Source: a virus. Taken from it: 41,771 nt of DNA. The notes below the pieces were generated by a model. That model made no database searches and was not told the origin of the DNA. It saw only the letters and a program-made list of their open reading frames with translations. Every line of letters begins with the position of its first letter. Within the stretch, counting starts at the first letter, position 1. This document shows, one piece after another, positions 345-34,305 of the stretch. Where the stretch lies: the IMG/VR virus record IMGVR_UViG_3300030406_003074, positions 1-41,771 of that record, one strand, 5' to 3'. A program made the position numbers and the translations under genes.

Positions 345-1081
345 AATTCGAAATTGATGCGAAGGTTCTCAGTAATGCACTTTCAGATATTCAAGGAAAG
401 GGTAAGTATGGATTAGTGAATACTAATCTACACGATTTGGTTTCCTGTTCTTTGGAAGGAGATGTATTAGAGATTTGGAATGCTAATACAACTCTAAGCC
501 TCAATATCAATTTGCAGGTTACTAATCATAGTGATGGAGAAATTGTTTTTGATGCAAAGGAATTGCTACCTTTCCTAAAGAAGTTCAATGGAACAATTAC
601 TGTAGAAGGTGGAGATGTTCTAACTATTGCAGACGAAGAACAAAATGTTACTCTTCCTAGAATAGTATTGCATCCTAATCAGAATGCAATCTCTAGACTA
701 AGAGGAATGTTAAACCATATTCAGTATGAAACTCCCGAAGAACTTTTTCTATTCGGGAATGGAAAGTTCGAAGGAGCCTTTACCTTACATGCGGATTATT
801 TTAAAGAAACAATAGATATGTGCGAACTTGTAAAGAGTGGAATCTACAGATTAGATTACACAGGACAAGAACTTACCATCAGTTCTCAAAATACTCCGAC
901 TAATAAATACTCTAGAGAATTACCAATAGAGAATGCCATTGGAGAACCGGCCACTGTAGAGTGGTCTTCTCCACTACACAAATTTTTCAAAGGAGAAATA
1001 AACTTCTATGTAAAGGATGAGTTTCCACTTCTTCTAATTTCTGAAGACAGAAAACTAATCTGTGCGCCACATACTAGGTGA
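341..1081 (+). CDS. pcn: PCNA-like sliding clamp
   Basis: A 246-residue protein of the length expected for a PCNA subunit. The N-terminus (KFEIDAKVLSNALSDIQ) fits the first strand and helix of PCNA. The C-terminus (FPLLLISEDRKLICAPHTR) matches the conserved end of the family, where the chain closes with a D/E-rich turn and an AP(R) motif. In archaea and eukaryotes PCNA forms a trimeric ring that tethers polymerase, ligase and nucleases to DNA. The next gene is a family B polymerase, the C-terminal polymerase fragment at 4391-5275 ends in a PIP box, and a double PIP-box microprotein lies at 7636-7722, so several partners of this clamp are encoded nearby. The fold assignment rests on terminal similarities and context; the middle is divergent. 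Confidence 0.8.
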   Translation: MKFEIDAKVLSNALSDIQGKGKYGLVNTNLHDLVSCSLEGDVLEIWNANTTLSLNINLQVTNHSDGEIVFDAKELLPFLKKFNGTITVEGGDVLTIADEEQNVTLPRIVLHPNQNAISRLRGMLNHIQYETPEELFLFGNGKFEGAFTLHADYFKETIDMCELVKSGIYRLDYTGQELTISSQNTPTNKYSRELPIENAIGEPATVEWSSPLHKFFKGEINFYVKDEFPLLLISEDRKLICAPHTR

Positions 1082-1085
1082 TGTA

Positions 1086-2825
1086 ATGATAATTGATGTA
1101 ATGAATAATAATGATATATTTTTATCTTGGAGAGAAAACGGAGAAAAGAAGATTGATATTAAATCTTTCAGACCGTATTTCTATGTCGAAGATTCACATA
1201 AAGAAATTGCATCTTACAATGTGTCAAAGTATTTGAAAAGAGATTTTGAATATGAAAGCGGAGAATGGTTTTCTTTAGAAGGAACTAAACTAAAGAAAGT
1301 CTATGTTGATGAATATAAAGATATGAAAAGAGCAAGAGAAAGATTCTCCCAAACATGGGAAGCAGATGTTCCTTATCATAGAAGATATGCAGTAGACAAT
1401 CTAACCGAGTTGCCCGAATACAATATGCGTAAATGGTATTGGGATATGGAATGGCAACAAGGTGGAGAACATGATGGTTGTATTACTACTATTGTAGCGT
1501 ATGATAATTATGATGAGAAGTTTACCCAATGGGTTTGGTTTCCTAATGAATTAGAATATGATATAGTGGATACCCCTATTGATAGAGATGAAAAACAAAT
1601 AGGAAGAAGAAGGGTATTTGACGATGAAAAGAAAATGATTGAAAGTTTCATCTATCGTATGGTTTCGGCAGACCCCGACATGTTAATTGCATGGTTTGGT
1701 CTAAAGTTCGATTTGCCAAAACTTCTAGAGAGATGTTGTGTATTAGGAATCAATCCTCTTATTATGTCTCCTGTAAAAAGAATACAGGGAATCAATTCTA
1801 CAAAGGATGGTTTTTCTTTCAAGAACAAAGATGGATTCTCTCCTATCTCTCAACCGATTGGCGGAAGACTGTGTTTGAATCTAGACCTAGCATTTGAAAG
1901 ACAGTGGAATGATTCTCAAAGAGGCACATTACCTTCTCTAAGTCTAAACTATATTTCTGAAACTATCTTAGGAAGAAACAAATTAGAATCTGAGAAGTTT
2001 CCCGACCCTAACGAATTCTATCGTAGGGCTTGGTTAGAAGATACAGAAACCTATCTGAAGTATGCTATAATAGATGTAGAACTAATGGTGGAAATAGATG
2101 AAACTAATTTCTGTAGTGAAGCGATTATTGCCCTACAAAGATTACTAGCAGCACCATTCGATTCTTGTTTCTATGCAAGTCACATGGCTAGTGTTTACTT
2201 TATGAGAAATGCTTGGTGGAAAGCACCAACAGGATACAGGCCTAAGAACAAGAAATGTTCTAACTGTGGACATATCAATGATAAGTCTGCAAAAGAATGT
2301 TCTAAGTGTAAAGAATCTTTGACCTATCAAGGAGCAATGGTTTACAATCCTCTTAGTGAGAATACTAATGGATTGCATTTAGGTGTAGCGGCATTCGACT
2401 TTGCTGGACTGTATCCTTCAATGATATTGGCTCGCAATATCTCTTTTGAGACTATTAGTGATACACCCACTCCTTTTGCTGCTAATCTAGCAACACCAAA
2501 GGATTTCAGCCATACAGACAAAGAGGACATGGTTTACTTCAAGACTGATAAGTTGGGATTGCTACCAACGGCAGTTCTAGAATTGAAAGAATTGAGGAAT
2601 GAATATAAACGAAGAATGAAAGAAGCAAGGCTATCGGATGACGGAGAATATCAGAAATGGAACAATAACCAAATGGCCGTCAAGAGATTGATGGCTTCAT
2701 TCTATGGGGTGTTGGCATTTGCTGGATTTAGTTGGTCGAATGTAAAGTTAGCAGAAAGCATTACTGCAAGTGCAAGAGAAGCAATTAGAAGTGCGGCATT
2801 CAAAGCAAAGGAGATGGAAGTATGA
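1086..2825 (+). CDS. polB: Family B DNA polymerase, N-terminal part (exonuclease, palm motifs A and B)
   Basis: A 579-residue protein when started at ATG 1086, which has AGGTGA seven bases upstream; an in-frame ATG at 1062 would overlap the clamp gene. The proofreading domain shows Exo I D120-x-E122, Exo II with D209 in WFGLKFDLP (the usual Asn is Phe), and Exo III Y326-x3-D330. Polymerase motif A is DFAGLYPS (438-445) and motif B is KRLMASFYG (533-541). Motif C is absent: the protein stops at KEMEV, just where the strand leading into YGDTDS should begin, and motif C starts the gene at 4391. An extra Cys4 knuckle (C391, C394, C405, C408) lies just before motif A. The two halves presumably assemble into one enzyme, as in the naturally split PolB of Methanothermobacter. 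Confidence 0.93.
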   Translation: MIIDVMNNNDIFLSWRENGEKKIDIKSFRPYFYVEDSHKEIASYNVSKYLKRDFEYESGEWFSLEGTKLKKVYVDEYKDMKRARERFSQTWEADVPYHRRYAVDNLTELPEYNMRKWYWDMEWQQGGEHDGCITTIVAYDNYDEKFTQWVWFPNELEYDIVDTPIDRDEKQIGRRRVFDDEKKMIESFIYRMVSADPDMLIAWFGLKFDLPKLLERCCVLGINPLIMSPVKRIQGINSTKDGFSFKNKDGFSPISQPIGGRLCLNLDLAFERQWNDSQRGTLPSLSLNYISETILGRNKLESEKFPDPNEFYRRAWLEDTETYLKYAIIDVELMVEIDETNFCSEAIIALQRLLAAPFDSCFYASHMASVYFMRNAWWKAPTGYRPKNKKCSNCGHINDKSAKECSKCKESLTYQGAMVYNPLSENTNGLHLGVAAFDFAGLYPSMILARNISFETISDTPTPFAANLATPKDFSHTDKEDMVYFKTDKLGLLPTAVLELKELRNEYKRRMKEARLSDDGEYQKWNNNQMAVKRLMASFYGVLAFAGFSWSNVKLAESITASAREAIRSAAFKAKEMEV

Positions 2826-3602: not shown

Positions 3603-3769
3603 ATTTAGAAGAAGAAATAGAGAATCTTAAGCAAAGAATCAAAGGACTAGAAAAGGACTTAGATTATCAAATAGAGCAAAACCATAACAATACAAAATTA
3701 TGGAATGCAGTAGCAGAAATACAAGATGAACTCCTCAAGAAAGGATTTTGGTTTAACCATCAGTTGTGA
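3599..3769 (+). CDS. 56-residue coiled-coil protein
   Basis: Starts at an ATGA overlap with the previous microprotein. Residues 1-28 are a heptad-like charged helix (EEEIENLKQRIKGLEKDL), followed by a second amphipathic segment and an aromatic tail (GFWFNHQL). It probably forms a homodimeric or partner-binding coiled coil. Pairing with the preceding tail-anchored microprotein is suggested by coupling alone. Confidence 0.5.
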   Translation: MNLEEEIENLKQRIKGLEKDLDYQIEQNHNNTKLWNAVAEIQDELLKKGFWFNHQL

Positions 3770-3774
3770 TTAGT

Positions 3775-4059
3775 ATGAAACATGGGCTTCAATTTAATAA
3801 AAATAATACATGTAAAAGAATAATAAGAGCCTTTGAAGAAAGTGGAGAGAAGGCGTTGACTACTCAAGAAATAGTCAATATTCTTTTTCAGCAAAGAACT
3901 AGCACAGGAAAACTGTTTACTAACAACTTTACTAGACACACTATAACTCAAACACTTAACAAATATCCCTTCTTTACAAAAGTAGGTAGTAAAACCGTAA
4001 AGGACAGAAATACAGGCTACTCAGTAAACTGTTGGTCTATAGTAGAGGAGGAAGAGTAA
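3775..4059 (+). CDS. Small winged-helix-like protein in the PolB insertion
   Basis: A 94-residue protein from ATG 3775; the in-frame GTG at 3766 is part of the GTGATT Shine-Dalgarno motif and is unlikely to be the start. The pattern helix (CKRIIRAFEES), helix (TTQEIVNILFQQR), recognition-type helix (NFTRHTITQTLNKYP) and a wing (FFTKVGSKTVKDRNTG) is typical of a winged helix-turn-helix. Likely a DNA-binding regulator; the target is unknown. Its stop overlaps the next start by TAATG. Confidence 0.65.
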   Translation: MKHGLQFNKNNTCKRIIRAFEESGEKALTTQEIVNILFQQRTSTGKLFTNNFTRHTITQTLNKYPFFTKVGSKTVKDRNTGYSVNCWSIVEEEE

Positions 4060-4394
4060 TGCCTAGAGGTTCAATCAAGAGATTAGATTGGCCTAGTCTA
4101 AGTTTGGCTATGGATGAGATTTTCCTACAACTAGAAGTTGATGAAATATGGTTAGAGGATTTAGTTCCTAAAGTTATTGATAGGTATCAGAAAATTTCGG
4201 GTCACAAAGTAGTTAATAGAAACTCCTATCCTATTTTCCGATTTAGAGGGGCTTTCAATAAAGAGGCACTCTCTAAAAGGGGTTGGTATCTTAAGAGAAA
4301 GACTAGATACTTTTTTAATACTCTTAACGGTAAAAAAACAGTTTACAGAAAGGCAAGATTAAGTAAGGCATTTAGGATTGGTGAAGAAGAATGA
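4059..4394 (+). CDS. Basic DNA-binding-like protein, last gene of the PolB insertion
   Basis: A 111-residue protein started at ATG 4059, with GAGGAGG upstream and a TAATG overlap. It is rich in Arg and Lys, especially near the end (LKRKTRYFFN, GKKTVYRKARLSKAFR). The helix content (LSLAMDEIFLQLEVDEIWLEDLVPKVIDRY) resembles a small helical DNA-binding domain, perhaps another winged helix. No homing-endonuclease motif (LAGLIDADG, GIY-YIG, HNH) is visible. It ends in an ATGA overlap with the polymerase C-terminal part. Confidence 0.6.
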   Translation: MPRGSIKRLDWPSLSLAMDEIFLQLEVDEIWLEDLVPKVIDRYQKISGHKVVNRNSYPIFRFRGAFNKEALSKRGWYLKRKTRYFFNTLNGKKTVYRKARLSKAFRIGEEE

Positions 4395-5275
4395 AGGTAG
4401 TTTATGGACATACAGATTCTATCTATGTCAAAATAGATTCTATCGAAAAGGCAAAAAAAGCCGTCATTGAAATCAATGACCATGTTAGGAAGTCTTTCCC
4501 AAATCTACTCAATCTTCCGGAGCATCCTGTAGTTTTGGAGTTTGAAAAGTATTACTCTTCACTAGGGGTTGGTTCTACAAAGAATAGAAATGCCGGACTT
4601 ATTTCGTGGAAAGATGGCTATGACCTAGATGAGCCGGAATTTGTGATGACGGGCTTTACTGCTAAAAGAATATCTGAGACTCCTTTAGCAAAAGATGTTC
4701 AAATGACAGTTTTGCGGAAGTGGTTGAATGGAGAGTCTAGAAAAGAAATCAATTCTTGGCTACATTCCAAATATAATTCAATAATAAATGGCGATTTTTC
4801 GCTTTTGGATATAATTAAAAGAAGCCGACTCAAAGAAAATAGATTTAACTTAAAATGTCCTTCTTGTAATAGAAAATACATGGTGCAAGACTGCTATTCT
4901 ATAGAATACTGCACCAAATGTGGTAAATCTAAGGAAAAATTCGTGACAGTTGATGGTAAGAGGCCTATTTTTGGTGAAGGTATTGCCGGAATCCTATATG
5001 GGAGAGAAAAATTGGACATGGAATACGATGATTCGTACTTATTCGTAAAGGTAAAGTCAAATGATACCTATACTCATCCTTTAACAGATGAGGAAAAGCA
5101 AGTAGAATATTTTTCTGCAACAACTTATGATGATTTTAAGAATGTTAAGCCAAACTTAGAACATTATGCAAAAGTTGTGATGAAAAAGGCCGAACCTGTT
5201 TACAAGGCAATGGGTTGGGAATTAGATTCGATTAGAACAGGAAGCACTCAAAGCACATTTGAAGATTGGTGGTGA
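4391..5275 (+). CDS. polB: Family B DNA polymerase, C-terminal part (motif C, thumb, PIP box)
   Basis: A 294-residue protein beginning directly at the motif C strand: MKVVYGHTDSIYVKID. The second motif C aspartate (D9), a metal ligand in characterised enzymes, is kept; the first, usually Asp, is His7. The rest (KNRNAGLISWKDG, VMTGFTAKRISETPLA) fits the end of the palm and the thumb. A zinc-ribbon-like insertion has C156, C159, C174 and C177. The last residues, QSTFEDWW, fit a PIP box (Q-x-x-hydrophobic-x-x-aromatic-aromatic), which should bind the clamp encoded at 341-1081. Together with the fragment at 1086-2825 all polymerase motifs are present, so the two products most likely form one active enzyme. 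Confidence 0.92.
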   Translation: MKVVYGHTDSIYVKIDSIEKAKKAVIEINDHVRKSFPNLLNLPEHPVVLEFEKYYSSLGVGSTKNRNAGLISWKDGYDLDEPEFVMTGFTAKRISETPLAKDVQMTVLRKWLNGESRKEINSWLHSKYNSIINGDFSLLDIIKRSRLKENRFNLKCPSCNRKYMVQDCYSIEYCTKCGKSKEKFVTVDGKRPIFGEGIAGILYGREKLDMEYDDSYLFVKVKSNDTYTHPLTDEEKQVEYFSATTYDDFKNVKPNLEHYAKVVMKKAEPVYKAMGWELDSIRTGSTQSTFEDWW

Positions 5276-11185: not shown

Positions 11186-11617
11186 TCATAGAGCCACTGC
11201 AATGACTATGAATGGAACGGCAATGACTACATTTGGAGAAACCCCATCACTTATGACACATACTGCTTCAAACTCTGCATCGAATCCTGCACCGGAAACC
11301 GCCGGTCTTGCGCCATTAATTGTTAAAGTATTGTAGGTTGCACCATTAGTGGTTCCTGTTGAAGCAACAGAAAATCTATTTCCTGTATCCGAATTTTCAT
11401 TGGTTTTAGTAACAGTCCAAGAGAAAGTGTAACTTCCTGTTCCGTTTGCGGGAATAACTGTTGCGTCTAATGCCCCTATCAGTGTTGTAAAAGTAGCAAT
11501 TGAACCTGTATGAGGAGCAGACATATCAGCCATATCTATTAAAGAGGGCCCGTCAATAGTAGCGGATAGATTTGTAAACGACCCTTGTTGGGCACAACCT
11601 GTTAAAATAATATACAT
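11186..11617 (-). CDS. Ig-like protein at the end of the tail operon
   Basis: About 143 residues from ATG 11617; an in-frame TTG at 11626 is the alternative. The body is rich in Thr, Ser, Ala and Gly with alternating hydrophobics (GSYTFSWTVTKT, DAEFEAVCVISDG), resembling a bacterial/viral Ig-like beta sandwich, and the end is hydrophobic. It follows the fibre gene directly and is probably a fibre tip or fibre-associated protein. The early LTGC is at residue 4-7 and is not a convincing lipobox because no signal helix precedes it. Confidence 0.65.
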   Translation of the reverse strand: MYIILTGCAQQGSFTNLSATIDGPSLIDMADMSAPHTGSIATFTTLIGALDATVIPANGTGSYTFSWTVTKTNENSDTGNRFSVASTGTTNGATYNTLTINGARPAVSGAGFDAEFEAVCVISDGVSPNVVIAVPFIVIAVAL

Positions 11618-11618
11618 A

Positions 11619-13532
11619 TCAACCAACTACCATCCAATTATTAGAACCAATAGCAATACAAGTTGCTGCTTTGAAAGTTCCTAAAGTGAAGTCTGAACCT
11701 GCACCATTGATATTATTCCCATTACGGCCAATAGTGATATTTCCACCTGTTGTATTTAGAATAGCATAATGTTCACCAGCAGTTGAAGTTGAAGGTAAAG
11801 TAATATTACCTGCACAAATGTTGTATCTTCCAGCATGTGCGGCTTCAGTTAAAGTAGTGCTTGCTGAAACTGAAACTGTTAGTAATCTTGTGTTTCTAAA
11901 TGTACCGCCTGTAAGAATATCAAGAGTGGCATCAATAGTAGAGGGAGCATGACCAATCCCTACTTTATCTGTACTTGCATCTACTCGAATCATATTTTGA
12001 TTTCCTGTGCTTTCAACTCTAAGGTCAGCATCTTGAGCGTCTTCATTAAAAATAGTCTCGGTAGCAGAAATACTAAGTCGCTTTTTCATAGTACCTGCCA
12101 TCTTAGTTCTAAGGTGCATTTTGCCACTTTCCGCTCCCGTTGTCGCTACTTGTGCTTCGCAGAAAATATCAGCATAATTTGTTCTTGTAAGAGTAGTCCA
12201 AGATTGTGAAGGTGCGCCTCCTGTTGCAGGGTCATCATCAGTAGTTACACCTCTCCAAATCAAATGCCCTAAGTCATCCCCATTAGTAGGAGTAGCACTG
12301 TTTCTATACAATGCTACATCGGGTGCGGCTGATGCACTATCATCTGTTGTTTCAAATAATGCGGCGTAGTTAGTATCAGTGGTTTTAACATGTAATTTTC
12401 CCGAAGGGCTATCAAGCCCTATACCAACTCTATTATTATCACCTTTTACAAATACTGTGTGGGTTTCTCCACTTGTTTCAACTCTAAAATCACTATCAAG
12501 AGAACCATTATTGACTACCACTTCTGTAGCATTACACTCTATTCTATTTCTTTCTGTACCGGCCATAATAGTTCTAATGAATAACTCTCCATCTTCTGAA
12601 CCTGCCGATACATCATCTGCCTTAACATAAAATTGAGCATAGGTTACATCTGCGGGAGTACCTGCATCATCCTTTCCTCTAAAGATTATATGGCCTAAAG
12701 AATCATTATCGGCGGCATCTGTTCCACTATTTCTATACAAAACTAATTCGGGGCCGGTAGCCGCCCCTGTATCTGTTGATTCAATCAAAACCATTGGATT
12801 ATTATCATCTGTACCTGTAGCAGACTGAATATGCAAATCAGCAGAAATAGTATCTCCCGTTCCAATTCCTACCTTTGATTGAGAACCGTCAATTCTCATT
12901 ACTTCAGTAGGAGTCCCACCATCATTTACCTTGAAAATAATATCTTTATCTTGGACTACATTTTCAAAAGTTACATCACCATCCGAATCTGCATCTACTG
13001 TCATTGCTTGAGTATAAACATTAGAATTAGCATAAGCAATACTCAAACTATTCGATTCTTTATTTGTGGTAAAGTATTGTATCAGTCTAGAACCGGCAGA
13101 AGTCCCACTAGAATATTCTATCATAGCAACAATAGTATCTCCTAACTTAAATTCGGGGACTCTATTTGCTGCCGTAGGTGGTCTTAGATATAGAACATTT
13201 ACAGTTTCTCCCCCTTCTCTTCCATCAGCCACTACCAGCAAATGATAGCCCTTGTCATAGGTAGTTGTCAAAGAACTATCTGCAAAGGTCTTAGTTGCGA
13301 CTTCATGATATTTGCCATTGCGTAATATCTTTCCTGCTGCAACGACTAGGTTTCCTCCGGTCTGATTAATGTCAAAATCTGTTCCTGTTTTTACAACAAC
13401 ATTACCTGCTGCCATTTGATTAAGTGCTTTGATTAATCCGGAATGTGGAAAGTCTACTGTATCTACAGGCTGAGTCATACTTGAGCCATTAGCGTTTTGT
13501 GAAATATAATGGGGGTTTGGGCTATTGGTCAT
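11619..13532 (-). CDS. Tail fibre-type protein with tandem repeats
   Basis: A 637-residue protein, ATG with GAGGTGAAC upstream. The N-terminus (DTVDFPHSGLIKALNQM) looks like a fibre attachment region. Residues about 221-368 and 369-523 are two copies of a roughly 150-residue unit. Each opens with VGIG and carries LYRNS, DxLGHxIxRG and an (M)AGT segment. A third VGIG begins at 524 before a C-terminal beta-rich domain (LTVSVSASTTLTEAAHAGRYNI is its start region). VGIG-type repeats are common in marine phage fibres. The role is probably host-surface binding. No chaperone-type endosialidase motif is seen at the C-terminus. Confidence 0.8.
   Translation of the reverse strand: MTNSPNPHYISQNANGSSMTQPVDTVDFPHSGLIKALNQMAAGNVVVKTGTDFDINQTGGNLVVAAGKILRNGKYHEVATKTFADSSLTTTYDKGYHLLVVADGREGGETVNVLYLRPPTAANRVPEFKLGDTIVAMIEYSSGTSAGSRLIQYFTTNKESNSLSIAYANSNVYTQAMTVDADSDGDVTFENVVQDKDIIFKVNDGGTPTEVMRIDGSQSKVGIGTGDTISADLHIQSATGTDDNNPMVLIESTDTGAATGPELVLYRNSGTDAADNDSLGHIIFRGKDDAGTPADVTYAQFYVKADDVSAGSEDGELFIRTIMAGTERNRIECNATEVVVNNGSLDSDFRVETSGETHTVFVKGDNNRVGIGLDSPSGKLHVKTTDTNYAALFETTDDSASAAPDVALYRNSATPTNGDDLGHLIWRGVTTDDDPATGGAPSQSWTTLTRTNYADIFCEAQVATTGAESGKMHLRTKMAGTMKKRLSISATETIFNEDAQDADLRVESTGNQNMIRVDASTDKVGIGHAPSTIDATLDILTGGTFRNTRLLTVSVSASTTLTEAAHAGRYNICAGNITLPSTSTAGEHYAILNTTGGNITIGRNGNNINGAGSDFTLGTFKAATCIAIGSNNWMVVG
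11964..12872 (-). repeat. Two tandem fibre repeats encoding about 150 residues each
   Basis: Unit 1 is about 12429-12872 and unit 2 about 11964-12428 of the fibre gene. Shared landmarks in each are VGIG, (A)LYRNS, DSLGH or DDLGH followed by I(F/W)RG, an AGTE or AGTM step, and a R(V)E(T/S) closing strand. DNA identity is low, so the duplication is old. Confidence 0.7.
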
Positions 13533-31294: not shown

Positions 31295-31951
31295 TCACAT
31301 TAGCCATTTTGCCCAAGCCGCACCTTTTTGAATTGCACTACCTAATCCTAGACCACTTTTAGGAGGTTCATACAAAGTTTGTCCTGTTTGTGGGTCTATC
31401 CAATATGGTCTGCCGTATGCGTCTGTGCCATTTGGAGGAACAGGATATCCTGTTCCATTATTCATAGCACCCTGCATTTGCTGATATTGTTGAGAATTTC
31501 CTGTAACTCCCGCTATTGCTGCCCCTGCTGAAATTTGTTGAGGCATTCCTCCCCCACCAAAACCTTGAGATTCTAGATATTGTTGCTTTGCCATCTTTCT
31601 TTGATTGATAACTTCTGTATCAATAGCAGAATTTAGCAAATTAATAATATCCAACTGAATATTTTCTTGAGTAATTCTTTCGTATTCTCTAAGAGAATCG
31701 GGATGAACTCTAATACTCTTAGTAGTATCATCTTGAACCAATTGCAACTTTACTAGCATTTGGCTAACTACTCTTTCTACCACATCCTCTATTAGTTTCT
31801 CAAATGTAACTAGGAACTTCTCACCATGATACTGAAAGAATTCTTCTACATGATTATCTTGTAGAGATAATAGATTATTCATTGATTTGAATTGTTGGTC
31901 TCCTTGTTGTTGAACTGCATTTAATACTGTGCCATTACTTGTTCCAAACAT
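31295..31951 (-). CDS. Gln/Gly-rich virion protein of unknown function
   Basis: A 218-residue protein from ATG 31951, with GGAGATGA upstream; the ATG at 31960 is too close to that signal. Residues 1-100 are helical (EEFFQYHGEKFLVTFEKLIE, DVVERVVSQMLVKLQLVQ). The middle is a flexible Gln/Gly/Asn stretch (GFGGGGMPQQ, QQYQQMQGAMNNG). A proline-containing YGRPYWIDPQTGQTLYEPP segment resembles a WW-like or collagen-free linker. Probably a structural protein with a disordered arm. Confidence 0.6.
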   Translation of the reverse strand: MFGTSNGTVLNAVQQQGDQQFKSMNNLLSLQDNHVEEFFQYHGEKFLVTFEKLIEDVVERVVSQMLVKLQLVQDDTTKSIRVHPDSLREYERITQENIQLDIINLLNSAIDTEVINQRKMAKQQYLESQGFGGGGMPQQISAGAAIAGVTGNSQQYQQMQGAMNNGTGYPVPPNGTDAYGRPYWIDPQTGQTLYEPPKSGLGLGSAIQKGAAWAKWLM

Positions 31952-31952
31952 A

Positions 31953-32600
31953 TTACTCATCTCCTTCTACTACCACACCTTGTTTTATCATTAAATGATT
32001 TAGCCTATCTGTTAAAATATTAATTTCTCCAACTATCTCAATTGCCTCATTGGTAGCCGACTTATTATCCGCTAAGGTGGGCGGTTTAATAAGCCATCCG
32101 GCAGAAACCAAACTAGTAACATCTTCTTTTGTTAGGGTAGTAAGTGGGCCGGACTTAGTTAGTTTTGGCATTCTAGGAATAAAGGCCTTGAACTCTAAGC
32201 CATGTTGTTCTGCTAGGATTTGTTGTTGAAGCATCTCCATTTGTCTATGAATACCGGCATGTTTAGGACAATAAGTTCCTCTCATTGGCCTACCTTTAGT
32301 GACATGTGTTAGTGGAATTGGTGGTCTCATATAGTCTCCACTTTCCCAAATGTGGTGAGTTCCACAAACTACGCAGCGTTCTTTGAGATTAAACTTGTAG
32401 CCGTATTTTATCTTCAAAAAAGATTTTCTTTCCGGACTTAATACTTTAGTCAATTCCTTCAATTGCTTCTTTGGTTTGATATTCATGCACTTGTATTCTT
32501 CTACAGGGCCACTTGCTCTTGCTCTTTGTAGTGGTGGCAAGAATGCAGATGGCGCATTTGTGTTCATCGGTTGTCCTATTAAACTTGGTTGTTGAAACAT
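31953..32600 (-). CDS. Zinc-binding virion-operon protein
   Basis: A 215-residue protein with GAGAGAGTAAA before its ATG. A metal-binding site is suggested by CVVCGTHH (residues about 77-84) and, about 30 residues on, CPKHAGIH, giving a Cys/His zinc-finger arrangement. The N-terminus is proline-rich and the C-terminus helical (NEAIEIVGEINILTDRLNHL). It could bind DNA ends, the portal or terminase components; none of this is shown by the sequence. Confidence 0.65.
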   Translation of the reverse strand: MFQQPSLIGQPMNTNAPSAFLPPLQRARASGPVEEYKCMNIKPKKQLKELTKVLSPERKSFLKIKYGYKFNLKERCVVCGTHHIWESGDYMRPPIPLTHVTKGRPMRGTYCPKHAGIHRQMEMLQQQILAEQHGLEFKAFIPRMPKLTKSGPLTTLTKEDVTSLVSAGWLIKPPTLADNKSATNEAIEIVGEINILTDRLNHLMIKQGVVVEGDE

Positions 32601-32601
32601 T

Positions 32602-33006
32602 TTACTCTCTCCATTGGCTTTCTTTCATTGTTAAAACGACAGTGGGTATAGTTTTATGCCCCGCTAGTCCTCTTATGTGAGAACGAAGGTGTCCTGCTAC
32701 TAATATTCTATCAAATATAGAACCATTATTATTTAGTAATTCTATCACTACAACAGGTTCTATTTCTTTCATATTTCTAAATAATTCTTTTGTTTCTTCT
32801 TGCATATTAGAATCGTATCTGCTTCTTAGAGTTTTATCTATAAATCTTTTATTAGGTATTACCATTAGTGGATAATTAGGCTCGTATTTTTCTTCATACT
32901 GCTCATTGTCATATGCCTTTACATTAAAATCGCTAGGCATAAGGTCTAACCAATCATCATCGTCAATGTAATAGTTTGGGATTGATTTTAGAACATTTTT
33001 CCACAT
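32602..33006 (-). CDS. ParB/sulfiredoxin-fold protein
   Basis: A 134-residue protein from ATG 33006 (TTG 33015 overlaps the previous stop and is less likely). After the MWKNVLKS start and an acidic run (YIDDDDWLDLM), the second half follows the ParB N-terminal domain: EPVVVIELLNN, then DRILVAGHLRSHIRGLAGHK and TIPTVVL. GHLRS stands where ParB has the GERR nucleotide-binding box, so CTP binding is uncertain. ParB-like domains also occur in phage DNA modification and nuclease proteins. It follows the GTPase gene by an overlap of a few bases. Confidence 0.68.
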   Translation of the reverse strand: MWKNVLKSIPNYYIDDDDWLDLMPSDFNVKAYDNEQYEEKYEPNYPLMVIPNKRFIDKTLRSRYDSNMQEETKELFRNMKEIEPVVVIELLNNNGSIFDRILVAGHLRSHIRGLAGHKTIPTVVLTMKESQWRE

Positions 33007-33011
33007 AGTAA

Positions 33012-33674
33012 TCAATAGTCCTTTATCATTGTTGTAACTCCCCTGTAAACCATTTCGGGTTGTGATTTAGCCGATACGATATACTTGAAAGTAGGTATGC
33101 CTTTGTCATTTAACCTTTGCATCCCATATTTAAAAGGCTCGAAGATAGGATGGTCTTGTATTTCCCCTTCATGAGAATATTTCTTACCCCATAAATCATA
33201 TTTGTTTGCCCAAATTCCAATACCCATAGGATAGTCTGCTTCCTTTTTCTTTTTTCCATCGGGCCATGTAGAAGAACAAATTGCATCTACCAAAAATTTC
33301 CAAGCAAGTTGGTGGTCTAAATTAGCAGAACTTTCTAGATGTCTATGGTCTATCATAAATATAATGTAATTTACTTTACGCCGACGCATATCCTTTACCC
33401 ATTCTTTCCAATAGAAAGATTCTCCTCCAACATCTGCCGTCTTGAGAGTATGAGTCTCACCATCTAACTTAATAGTTTTTCTAGTTCCTCTGTGTAGGCC
33501 AACAGTCCTTTTCTTAATATCGGGAACTTCTCCCCTAGTTCTAAGTTGATGATGTAAAGTAGTTTTACCTACTTTTGTTGCACCATAAACTCCAAAATTA
33601 ATCGCATGTATTCTTTTGTAAAAAGCAATCGCCGCTTCTGTAATTACAATAGCGAAACCTGCGAGGACTGACAC
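33012..33674 (-). CDS. Membrane-anchored Arf/SR-beta-like small GTPase
   Basis: A 220-residue protein starting at GTG 33674, six bases after GGGTGAT. All G motifs are present. G1 is GATKVGKTT (31-39), a Thr at 57 fits G2, and G3 is DVGG (81-84), as in Arf, Sar and G-alpha. G4 is NKYD (157-160) and G5 is SAK (201-203). The residue after DVGG is Glu, where related GTPases carry the catalytic Gln, so hydrolysis may be slow or differently catalysed. The first 18 residues are hydrophobic (LAGFAIVITEAAIAFY), a signal-anchor before the G domain as in the SRP receptor beta subunit. Two membrane-protein genes precede it. The function in the virus is unknown. Confidence 0.88.
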   Translation of the reverse strand: MSVLAGFAIVITEAAIAFYKRIHAINFGVYGATKVGKTTLHHQLRTRGEVPDIKKRTVGLHRGTRKTIKLDGETHTLKTADVGGESFYWKEWVKDMRRRKVNYIIFMIDHRHLESSANLDHQLAWKFLVDAICSSTWPDGKKKKEADYPMGIGIWANKYDLWGKKYSHEGEIQDHPIFEPFKYGMQRLNDKGIPTFKYIVSAKSQPEMVYRGVTTMIKDY

Positions 33675-33680
33675 ATTTAA

Positions 33681-33899
33681 TCACCCAAAGGTATGATTCC
33701 AAGCATCTCTGCAAACTTCTAATATCCATCCTAGAATATTAATATCGAAAACACCTAGTATGTTTCCTATTAGAAAACCCGACAAAGCGGCACAAGTTCC
33801 CCAAAAGTAGGCTCTAAATTTTAGAAACCAAATATCAGCAGAGTGCGCTCTCTGTAGGTCATATGCCATTGCGCTTTCATCGAATCCGGTAAAAACCAA
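33681..33899 (-). CDS. Small membrane protein next to the GTPase
   Basis: Best start is TTG 33899, five bases after GAGGTGA, giving 72 residues; an in-frame TTG at 33920 lies before that signal. One or two hydrophobic segments (residues about 27-55, WGTCAALSGFLIGNILGVF and INILGWILEV) form a membrane hairpin or one helix plus a surface helix. No family is recognised. Its tight spacing to the GTPase gene suggests joint function. Confidence 0.6.
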   Translation of the reverse strand: MVFTGFDESAMAYDLQRAHSADIWFLKFRAYFWGTCAALSGFLIGNILGVFDINILGWILEVCRDAWNHTFG

Positions 33900-33909
33900 A
33901 GGTTTCACC

Positions 33910-34305
33910 TCACTGTTCAATAGCCGCTAAAAATTCGTTTCCTATTCCTTCTGCTTCCATCTGAGAAACAAACTGTGGTTGAGTATTATATGTTGTAGTA
34001 TAATTCTTCATTGTTTCTCGGATTTTTTGCTTCTGTTCTTCTTCCTTTCTCTTTTGTGCCCAAAAGTGACTCACTCTTCTATCCAACAGATACATTTCTA
34101 TCTTTTCATTTAAGGCTAAATCAAAGATTGCCTTTAGAATCATAATAGAACCTACTGTTATCAGTCCGAATAAAGTCGCATGTGCCAAAGTGGTATATGG
34201 GAAATTTGTTCCATAGTTAGCGTAAAAGAAAACATTCGCTCCGCTAACTGTTCCTACGAATAGGATAGTCATAACTAATCTTGTGTCGTGTGCTAGTGCT
34301 GGCAT
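33910..34305 (-). CDS. Two-pass membrane protein with charged cytoplasmic tail
   Basis: A 131-residue protein with GAGGTTTTTACT before its ATG. Hydrophobic segments at about 10-29 (LVMTILFVGTVSGANVFFYA) and 40-63 are followed by a basic/acidic coiled region (WAQKRKEEEQKQKIRETM). It is the first of three consecutive membrane-linked genes, the third being the GTPase. The tail could be the site of interaction with that GTPase; this is inference from order. Confidence 0.65.
   Translation of the reverse strand: MPALAHDTRLVMTILFVGTVSGANVFFYANYGTNFPYTTLAHATLFGLITVGSIMILKAIFDLALNEKIEMYLLDRRVSHFWAQKRKEEEQKQKIRETMKNYTTTYNTQPQFVSQMEAEGIGNEFLAAIEQ

Follow-up and report, generated by a model that had tools for sequence, protein, structure and literature searches.

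An Arf-like small GTPase gene and two membrane-protein genes as a core late unit in tailed archaeal viruses resembling Magrovirales

The window, by which we mean the whole stretch of 41,771 nucleotides analysed here, a 41.8-kb virus record (IMGVR_UViG_3300030406_003074 of IMG/VR), encodes an Arf-like small GTPase together with two membrane proteins, and this trio belongs to the core late genes of tailed archaeal viruses that resemble Magrovirales. The anatomy of the trio is firm while its function we infer; the GTPase itself is real and strongly selected, and adds a new branch to a known superfamily. The membrane traffic of eukaryotes, controlled by Arf proteins, has small GTPases as a hallmark. 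To our knowledge, the gene unit found here matches no known system. A core, strongly conserved late GTPase in viruses that appear to infect very abundant ocean archaea, linked to a pair of membrane proteins in no fewer than two virus clades, brings a virus-borne branch into the debate on the origins of Arf-like GTPases, and makes testable how tailed viruses assemble at, or exit, the membrane of archaea lacking peptidoglycan. The unit's conservation suggests that it acts at the host membrane, at a late stage of infection. No GTPase is mentioned in the open-access magrovirus literature searched.

The gene trio and its viral setting

The trio occupies positions 33012-34305 on the minus strand and has two conserved downstream neighbours, here termed g215 and g221:

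33910..34305, minus strand: TM2, a two-pass membrane protein of 131 aa with hydrophobic segments at residues ~9-28 and ~43-61 and a charged C-terminal tail
33681..33899, minus strand: TM1, a small membrane protein, 72 aa from TTG 33899 (the listed ORF begins at 33920)
33012..33674, minus strand: Arf-like small GTPase of 220 aa, GTG start, with an N-terminal hydrophobic helix (2-22), five G motifs and Glu85 in place of the usual Gln
31953..32600, minus strand: g215, a conserved neighbour with CxxC and CxxH recognised by eye; a homologue also lies downstream of the sister-clade GTPase
31295..31960, minus strand: g221, a conserved neighbour with a helical N-terminal part and a Gln/Gly/Pro-rich tail; probable sister-clade homologue

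The three ORFs of the trio are all real and all co-directional, and their anatomy confirms the initial annotation, in which they had been read as three consecutive genes for a two-pass membrane protein with a charged tail, a small membrane protein and a GTPase; the late-operon location proposed there also holds, the GTPase gene lying inside the block of morphogenesis genes. Since the homologues of TM1 begin with MVFTGF, and the equivalent point in the window is the TTG codon at 33899, preceded by a Shine-Dalgarno-like GAGGTGA, we place the start of TM1 there, and not at 33920, giving a protein of probably 72 aa. The g215 gene follows that of the GTPase, sometimes with a short insert gene between them. 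A ParB_N-like ORF (32602-33015), which overlaps the GTPase stop, was matched in only five of the compared loci and is for that reason probably a mobile extra gene.

The replication genes of the window encode a sliding-clamp-like protein, a family B polymerase in two ORFs, a Cas4-like nuclease, an ERCC4 nuclease and an ATP-dependent ligase, and its virion module comprises a prohead protease, an SU10-like capsid protein, a tail-tube protein and a tape measure. The capsid protein has relatives in the haloviruses HCTV-1 and HVTV-1 (Druskaviridae-like), and Cpn60 is encoded by 17 of the 18 related contigs of 84-97 kb. The Aoguangviridae (Magrovirales) are described as viruses of 90-100 kb with a split PolB, clamp, ligase, GroEL and opposed modules (PMC10768690), and on the basis of this description, together with the split PolB, clamp and ligase and the Cpn60 of its kin, the window virus is provisionally placed in Magrovirales, a group characterised also by Poseidoniales hosts. 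The split PolB, Cpn60, sliding clamp and ATP ligase, the opposed replication and virion modules and the HCTV-1-related capsid protein are likenesses to both Magrovirales (Aoguangviridae, Apasviridae) and Druskaviridae. In HCTV-1, by contrast, the GTPase is absent, and close to its place stands a single small membrane-like protein, gp116; this protein (L092:14224-14553) carries a charged tail and sits between capsid-associated and adaptor genes. The two PolB halves of the window (1062-2825 and 4391-5275) are split just ahead of motif C (YGHTDS) and separated by two small ORFs (3766-4394); the polymerase of the sister clade described below is unsplit, at about 800 aa.

Motifs, predicted fold and family placement

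The GTPase contains all five G motifs:

Residues 31-39: G1, GATKVGKTT
Residue 57: G2, T57
Residues 81-85: G3, DVGGE
Residues 157-160: G4, NKYD
Residues 201-203: G5, SAK

The core residues of these motifs are invariant among 56 dereplicated relatives, and dN/dS against near relatives is 0.035-0.075; intact motifs and this ratio together rule out a degenerate GTPase. The N-terminal helix, with a Kyte-Doolittle 18-mer mean of up to 2.04, includes an invariant Glu13, so that both a single-pass anchor and an in-plane helix are possible. Single-sequence profile matches of the window protein lie below their cut-offs (Pfam Roc, E 6e-4; Ras, 2e-3; NCBIfam small_GTP, 1.5e-6), yet the motif and fold evidence makes the assignment as a GTPase firm.

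In the AlphaFold2 model obtained with 56 aligned relatives (pLDDT 78, pTM 0.79), which superseded an earlier, poor model from 27 rows (pLDDT 71, Z about 8), the helix 2-22 runs into a canonical Ras-like fold, on which G1 to G5 follow in order, as in a small GTPase of the TRAFAC/Ras superfamily. Motifs, hydrophobicity and predicted fold together bear out an anchor-type N-terminal helix and a complete G1-G5 set, as first annotated. The fold was compared by Foldseek and VIA-align, Z differences below 1 in the latter being counted as ties. This structure search, which had been proposed at the outset, returned ARL1 and ARF6 as the top VIA-align matches (Z 16.8, 2.5-2.6 Å over 161-163 residues); the top 26 rows are all Arf/Arl or Asgard Arf (Z 15.3-16.8), with G-alpha and Rab at 15.1 or less. 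A two-clade profile search gave 8oun as the best PDB match (E 1e-4), an entry deposited as a GTP-binding protein, which from the adjacent codes we take to group with the Asgard Arf entries 8ouk and 8oum.

The predicted fold shares with the Arf/Arl/Sar and Asgard ArfR proteins Z values of 15-17 (15.3 for the Asgard entries 8ouk and 8oum), a DxGG switch II and a non-glycine residue at the position of Ras Gly12. As expected of Arf/Arl/Sar, its closest structural relatives are Arf/Arl proteins and a hydrophobic N-terminal helix, predicted to bind membrane, immediately precedes strand 1. It differs from Arf/Arl/Sar in its longer hydrophobic helix, its occurrence in a virus within a fixed gene unit and, in the window clade, Glu in place of Gln. 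Because the score for Pfam Arf (PF00025) falls below the cut-off (best E 0.0016 among 27 members, with Arf unlisted for the window protein), we do not file the GTPase as an Arf family member but regard it as a member of the extended Ras superfamily whose predicted fold lies closest to Arf/Arl.

The replacement by Glu of the Gln after DVGG, remarked upon in the initial annotation, extends to the whole window clade (160 of 160 distinct GTPases), from which the catalytic Gln typical of Arf is accordingly absent. At the same position the 80 sister-clade proteins have Gln in 53, Glu in 15, Thr in 9, His in 2 and Asp in 1. For Ras Q61E a raised intrinsic activity is reported (PMC10515638, PMC2987813), so Glu at this position does not denote a dead enzyme and, by analogy, the change need not abolish hydrolysis. 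The variability of the residue in the sister clade could mean that there hydrolysis is slow or unneeded.

Other virus-encoded small GTPases are the Ras-family proteins of giant eukaryotic viruses, which provide the top BFVD matches; the hosts of those viruses, however, are eukaryotic, and we know of no comparable membrane gene unit in them. Likewise, MglA and Rup are prokaryotic switches of the Ras superfamily. In contrast to MglA the viral protein keeps the G3 Asp, and no MglB/Roadblock partner gene was found, there being no Roadblock match above cut-off in 13 records. Group 1 Rup genes lie beside genes for membrane and coiled-coil proteins and also lack the G3 Gln (PMC4316618); viruses are unmentioned in that paper.

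Conservation within and between two virus clades

Relatives of the GTPase occur in 246 IMG/VR stretches. Both membrane genes accompany it in all loci that could be assessed for the co-conservation suggested by the initial annotation: homologues of TM2 and TM1 lie upstream in 222 of 222 loci with enough flank, and the order and strand TM2-TM1-GTPase are identical in all 231 loci having the three genes. As these loci had been selected through the GTPase, a further set was fetched by the capsid protein, with at least 4.5 kb downstream, and here all three genes are present in 49 of 49. A one-genome oddity or misassembly is ruled out by the hundreds of contigs and the agreement of the capsid-selected loci. 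A scan for the DNA pattern of DxGGExxYW hit at least 119 stretches and, among the matches listed, only L146 has no family match.

Over 80 loci, and with no value for TM1, no late protein in the comparison varies less than the GTPase: its mean distance is 0.233 and that of the capsid protein 0.283. Its dN/dS is lower as well, at 0.035-0.075 against 0.08-0.13. In the window clade the unit comes after the capsid gene, between capsid-associated genes and a head-tail adaptor-like gene.

Some loci depart in detail. The gap between TM1 and GTPase holds about 300-950 bases of extra sequence in 26 of the 231, and in L031, L023 and L058 these insertions contain short ORFs with mutually similar, MWKDILK-like starts. 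In IMGVR_UViG_3300021958_000021 (184733 bases) two matches to the GTPase pattern lie about 90 kb apart, possibly because it is a concatemer or two joined genomes.

Outside these viruses, tblastn with the GTPase of either clade gave no match in the 50,697 phage records of INPHARED, and the haloviruses checked are without the GTPase unit. A single genome scan for cellular relatives yielded a sole match, a Maricaulis MAG contig (L082) with a GTPase copy 73% identical, which is probably viral contamination of the bacterial bin.

A capsid search ranked by similarity to HCTV-1 led to marine contigs of up to 108 kb, the sister clade, whose capsid proteins are 38-40% identical to that of the window (24-25% for the haloviruses) and whose GTPases are 24-32% identical to the window protein. 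A six-frame HMM search found no GTPase near the sister-clade capsid gene. When whole records were searched, 11 of 19 proved to have it, among them all five marine contigs of at least 95 kb, which had been chosen by capsid protein; it was absent from two halovirus-like contigs and from HCTV-1. In this clade the unit lies upstream of terminase, apart from the capsid gene, the terminase large subunit of L345 being about 7.5 kb downstream. At the mapped loci the GTPase is preceded by a membrane protein of 172-223 aa with a charged tail and, save in L342, for which that strand yielded no such ORF, by one of 78-100 aa, and is followed by a homologue of g215 and a g221-like gene. Among 80 loci fetched with the sister GTPase, the two membrane genes are upstream in 75 of the 75 with enough flank and g215 is present in all 80. 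G5 is ATR in much of the clade.

Cross-clade comparison of profiles by hhalign gave probabilities of 100 for the GTPase, 97.5 for g215 and 87 for g221 (E 4e-6). For TM2 the homology is weak (E 0.007) and for TM1 hhalign detects none, so that the equivalence of the two membrane proteins across clades rests on position and topology. The unit is retained in both clades although its genomic place differs. We looked for a GTPase situated elsewhere without the membrane genes, the contrary case envisaged in the initial annotation, and found that the sister GTPase, although relocated, is still preceded by two membrane-protein genes.

Possible roles at the host membrane

There is, in our judgement, an even chance that the GTPase is a membrane-anchored GTP switch acting late with TM1 and TM2, in virion assembly or, more tentatively, in egress. 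Membrane attachment, partnership and late action are here what we infer, timing and localisation being read from gene position. In such a scheme the helix would hold the GTPase domain at the host membrane, on its cytoplasmic side; the GTP-bound state would recruit or rearrange TM2 and TM1, and perhaps g215 and g221; a membrane patch would thereby be marked or remodelled, where virions could mature and from which they could leave; and hydrolysis would reset the switch. If a single use had to be named, egress from a host lacking peptidoglycan would tentatively be favoured.

We favour a part in assembly or egress, played at the host membrane, on account of the linkage of the unit to virion genes and of its place in the sister clade upstream of terminase, where many phages keep their lysis genes. 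It is favoured also because most archaeal viruses are without a known egress mechanism: their egress is mostly unexplained (PMC4456609), and a detectable lytic protein is present in only 10.9% of 129 archaeal dsDNA viruses (PMC12596118). A bolder form of this proposal, which we consider rather doubtful, is that the Arf-like GTPase and its partner membrane proteins constitute a GTP-timed machine that remodels or breaches the host membrane, a mode of lysis or egress unlike the holin-endolysin system, virus-associated pyramids or ESCRT-dependent release, and one that would put an Arf-type switch in a virus of non-Asgard archaea.

The main rival, which appears unlikely, is that the particle carries the GTPase, TM1 and TM2, that on entry these become inserted into the host membrane, and that GTP acts as the sensor of arrival in the cytoplasm. 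A structural or ejection role is compatible with the same anatomy, and would accord with the place of the window-clade unit between capsid-associated genes and the head-tail adaptor-like gene and with conservation of the GTPase at the level of the capsid protein; the sister-clade unit, however, lies away from the capsid gene and upstream of terminase, and we know of no tailed-virus particle that contains a GTPase.

Somewhat less probable is a host-takeover factor, which would take the place of, or imitate, a small GTPase that serves the host in polarity, motility, division or protein targeting. This would include the initial suggestion of an SRP-receptor-like surface controlling host protein targeting, which finds no support, since the structure and profile searches favour Arf/Arl. 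Weak Pfam SRPRB matches in 9 of 27 members of the GTPase family speak for takeover. A Pfam SRPRB score of 14.5 bits lies under the cut-off of 25; SR-beta is not among the 50 VIA-align matches listed, which excludes nothing. Archaeal genomes, so far as we are aware, have no SR-beta, and FtsY lacks the SRX domain to which SR-beta binds. Takeover also gains from the existence in prokaryotes of small GTPases of the MglA and Rup families, of which Group 4 MglA is almost exclusive to Euryarchaeota (PMC4316618), and loses from the fixed, not sporadic, association of the viral GTPase with dedicated viral membrane genes in a late block. Least probable is a membrane-associated replication or packaging compartment on which the GTPase would confer identity, as Arf does on organelles, for while the Arf-like fold, the anchor and the terminase genes that come after the unit in the sister clade are in keeping with it, we know of no precedent for such a compartment in archaeal tailed viruses.

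The surroundings of the sister-clade unit vary. An HMG-CoA-lyase-like gene is found near the unit in L338, L342 and L346 (PF00682 matches 9 of 33 records), and in part of the clade a 64-aa MazE/AbrB-like protein is encoded between GTPase and g215 (L346:9096-9290, L345:9635-9829). L345 also encodes an 81-aa protein (11401-11646) with two strong hydrophobic segments, of holin-like size and topology, just upstream of a helix-turn-helix, terminase-small-subunit-like gene.
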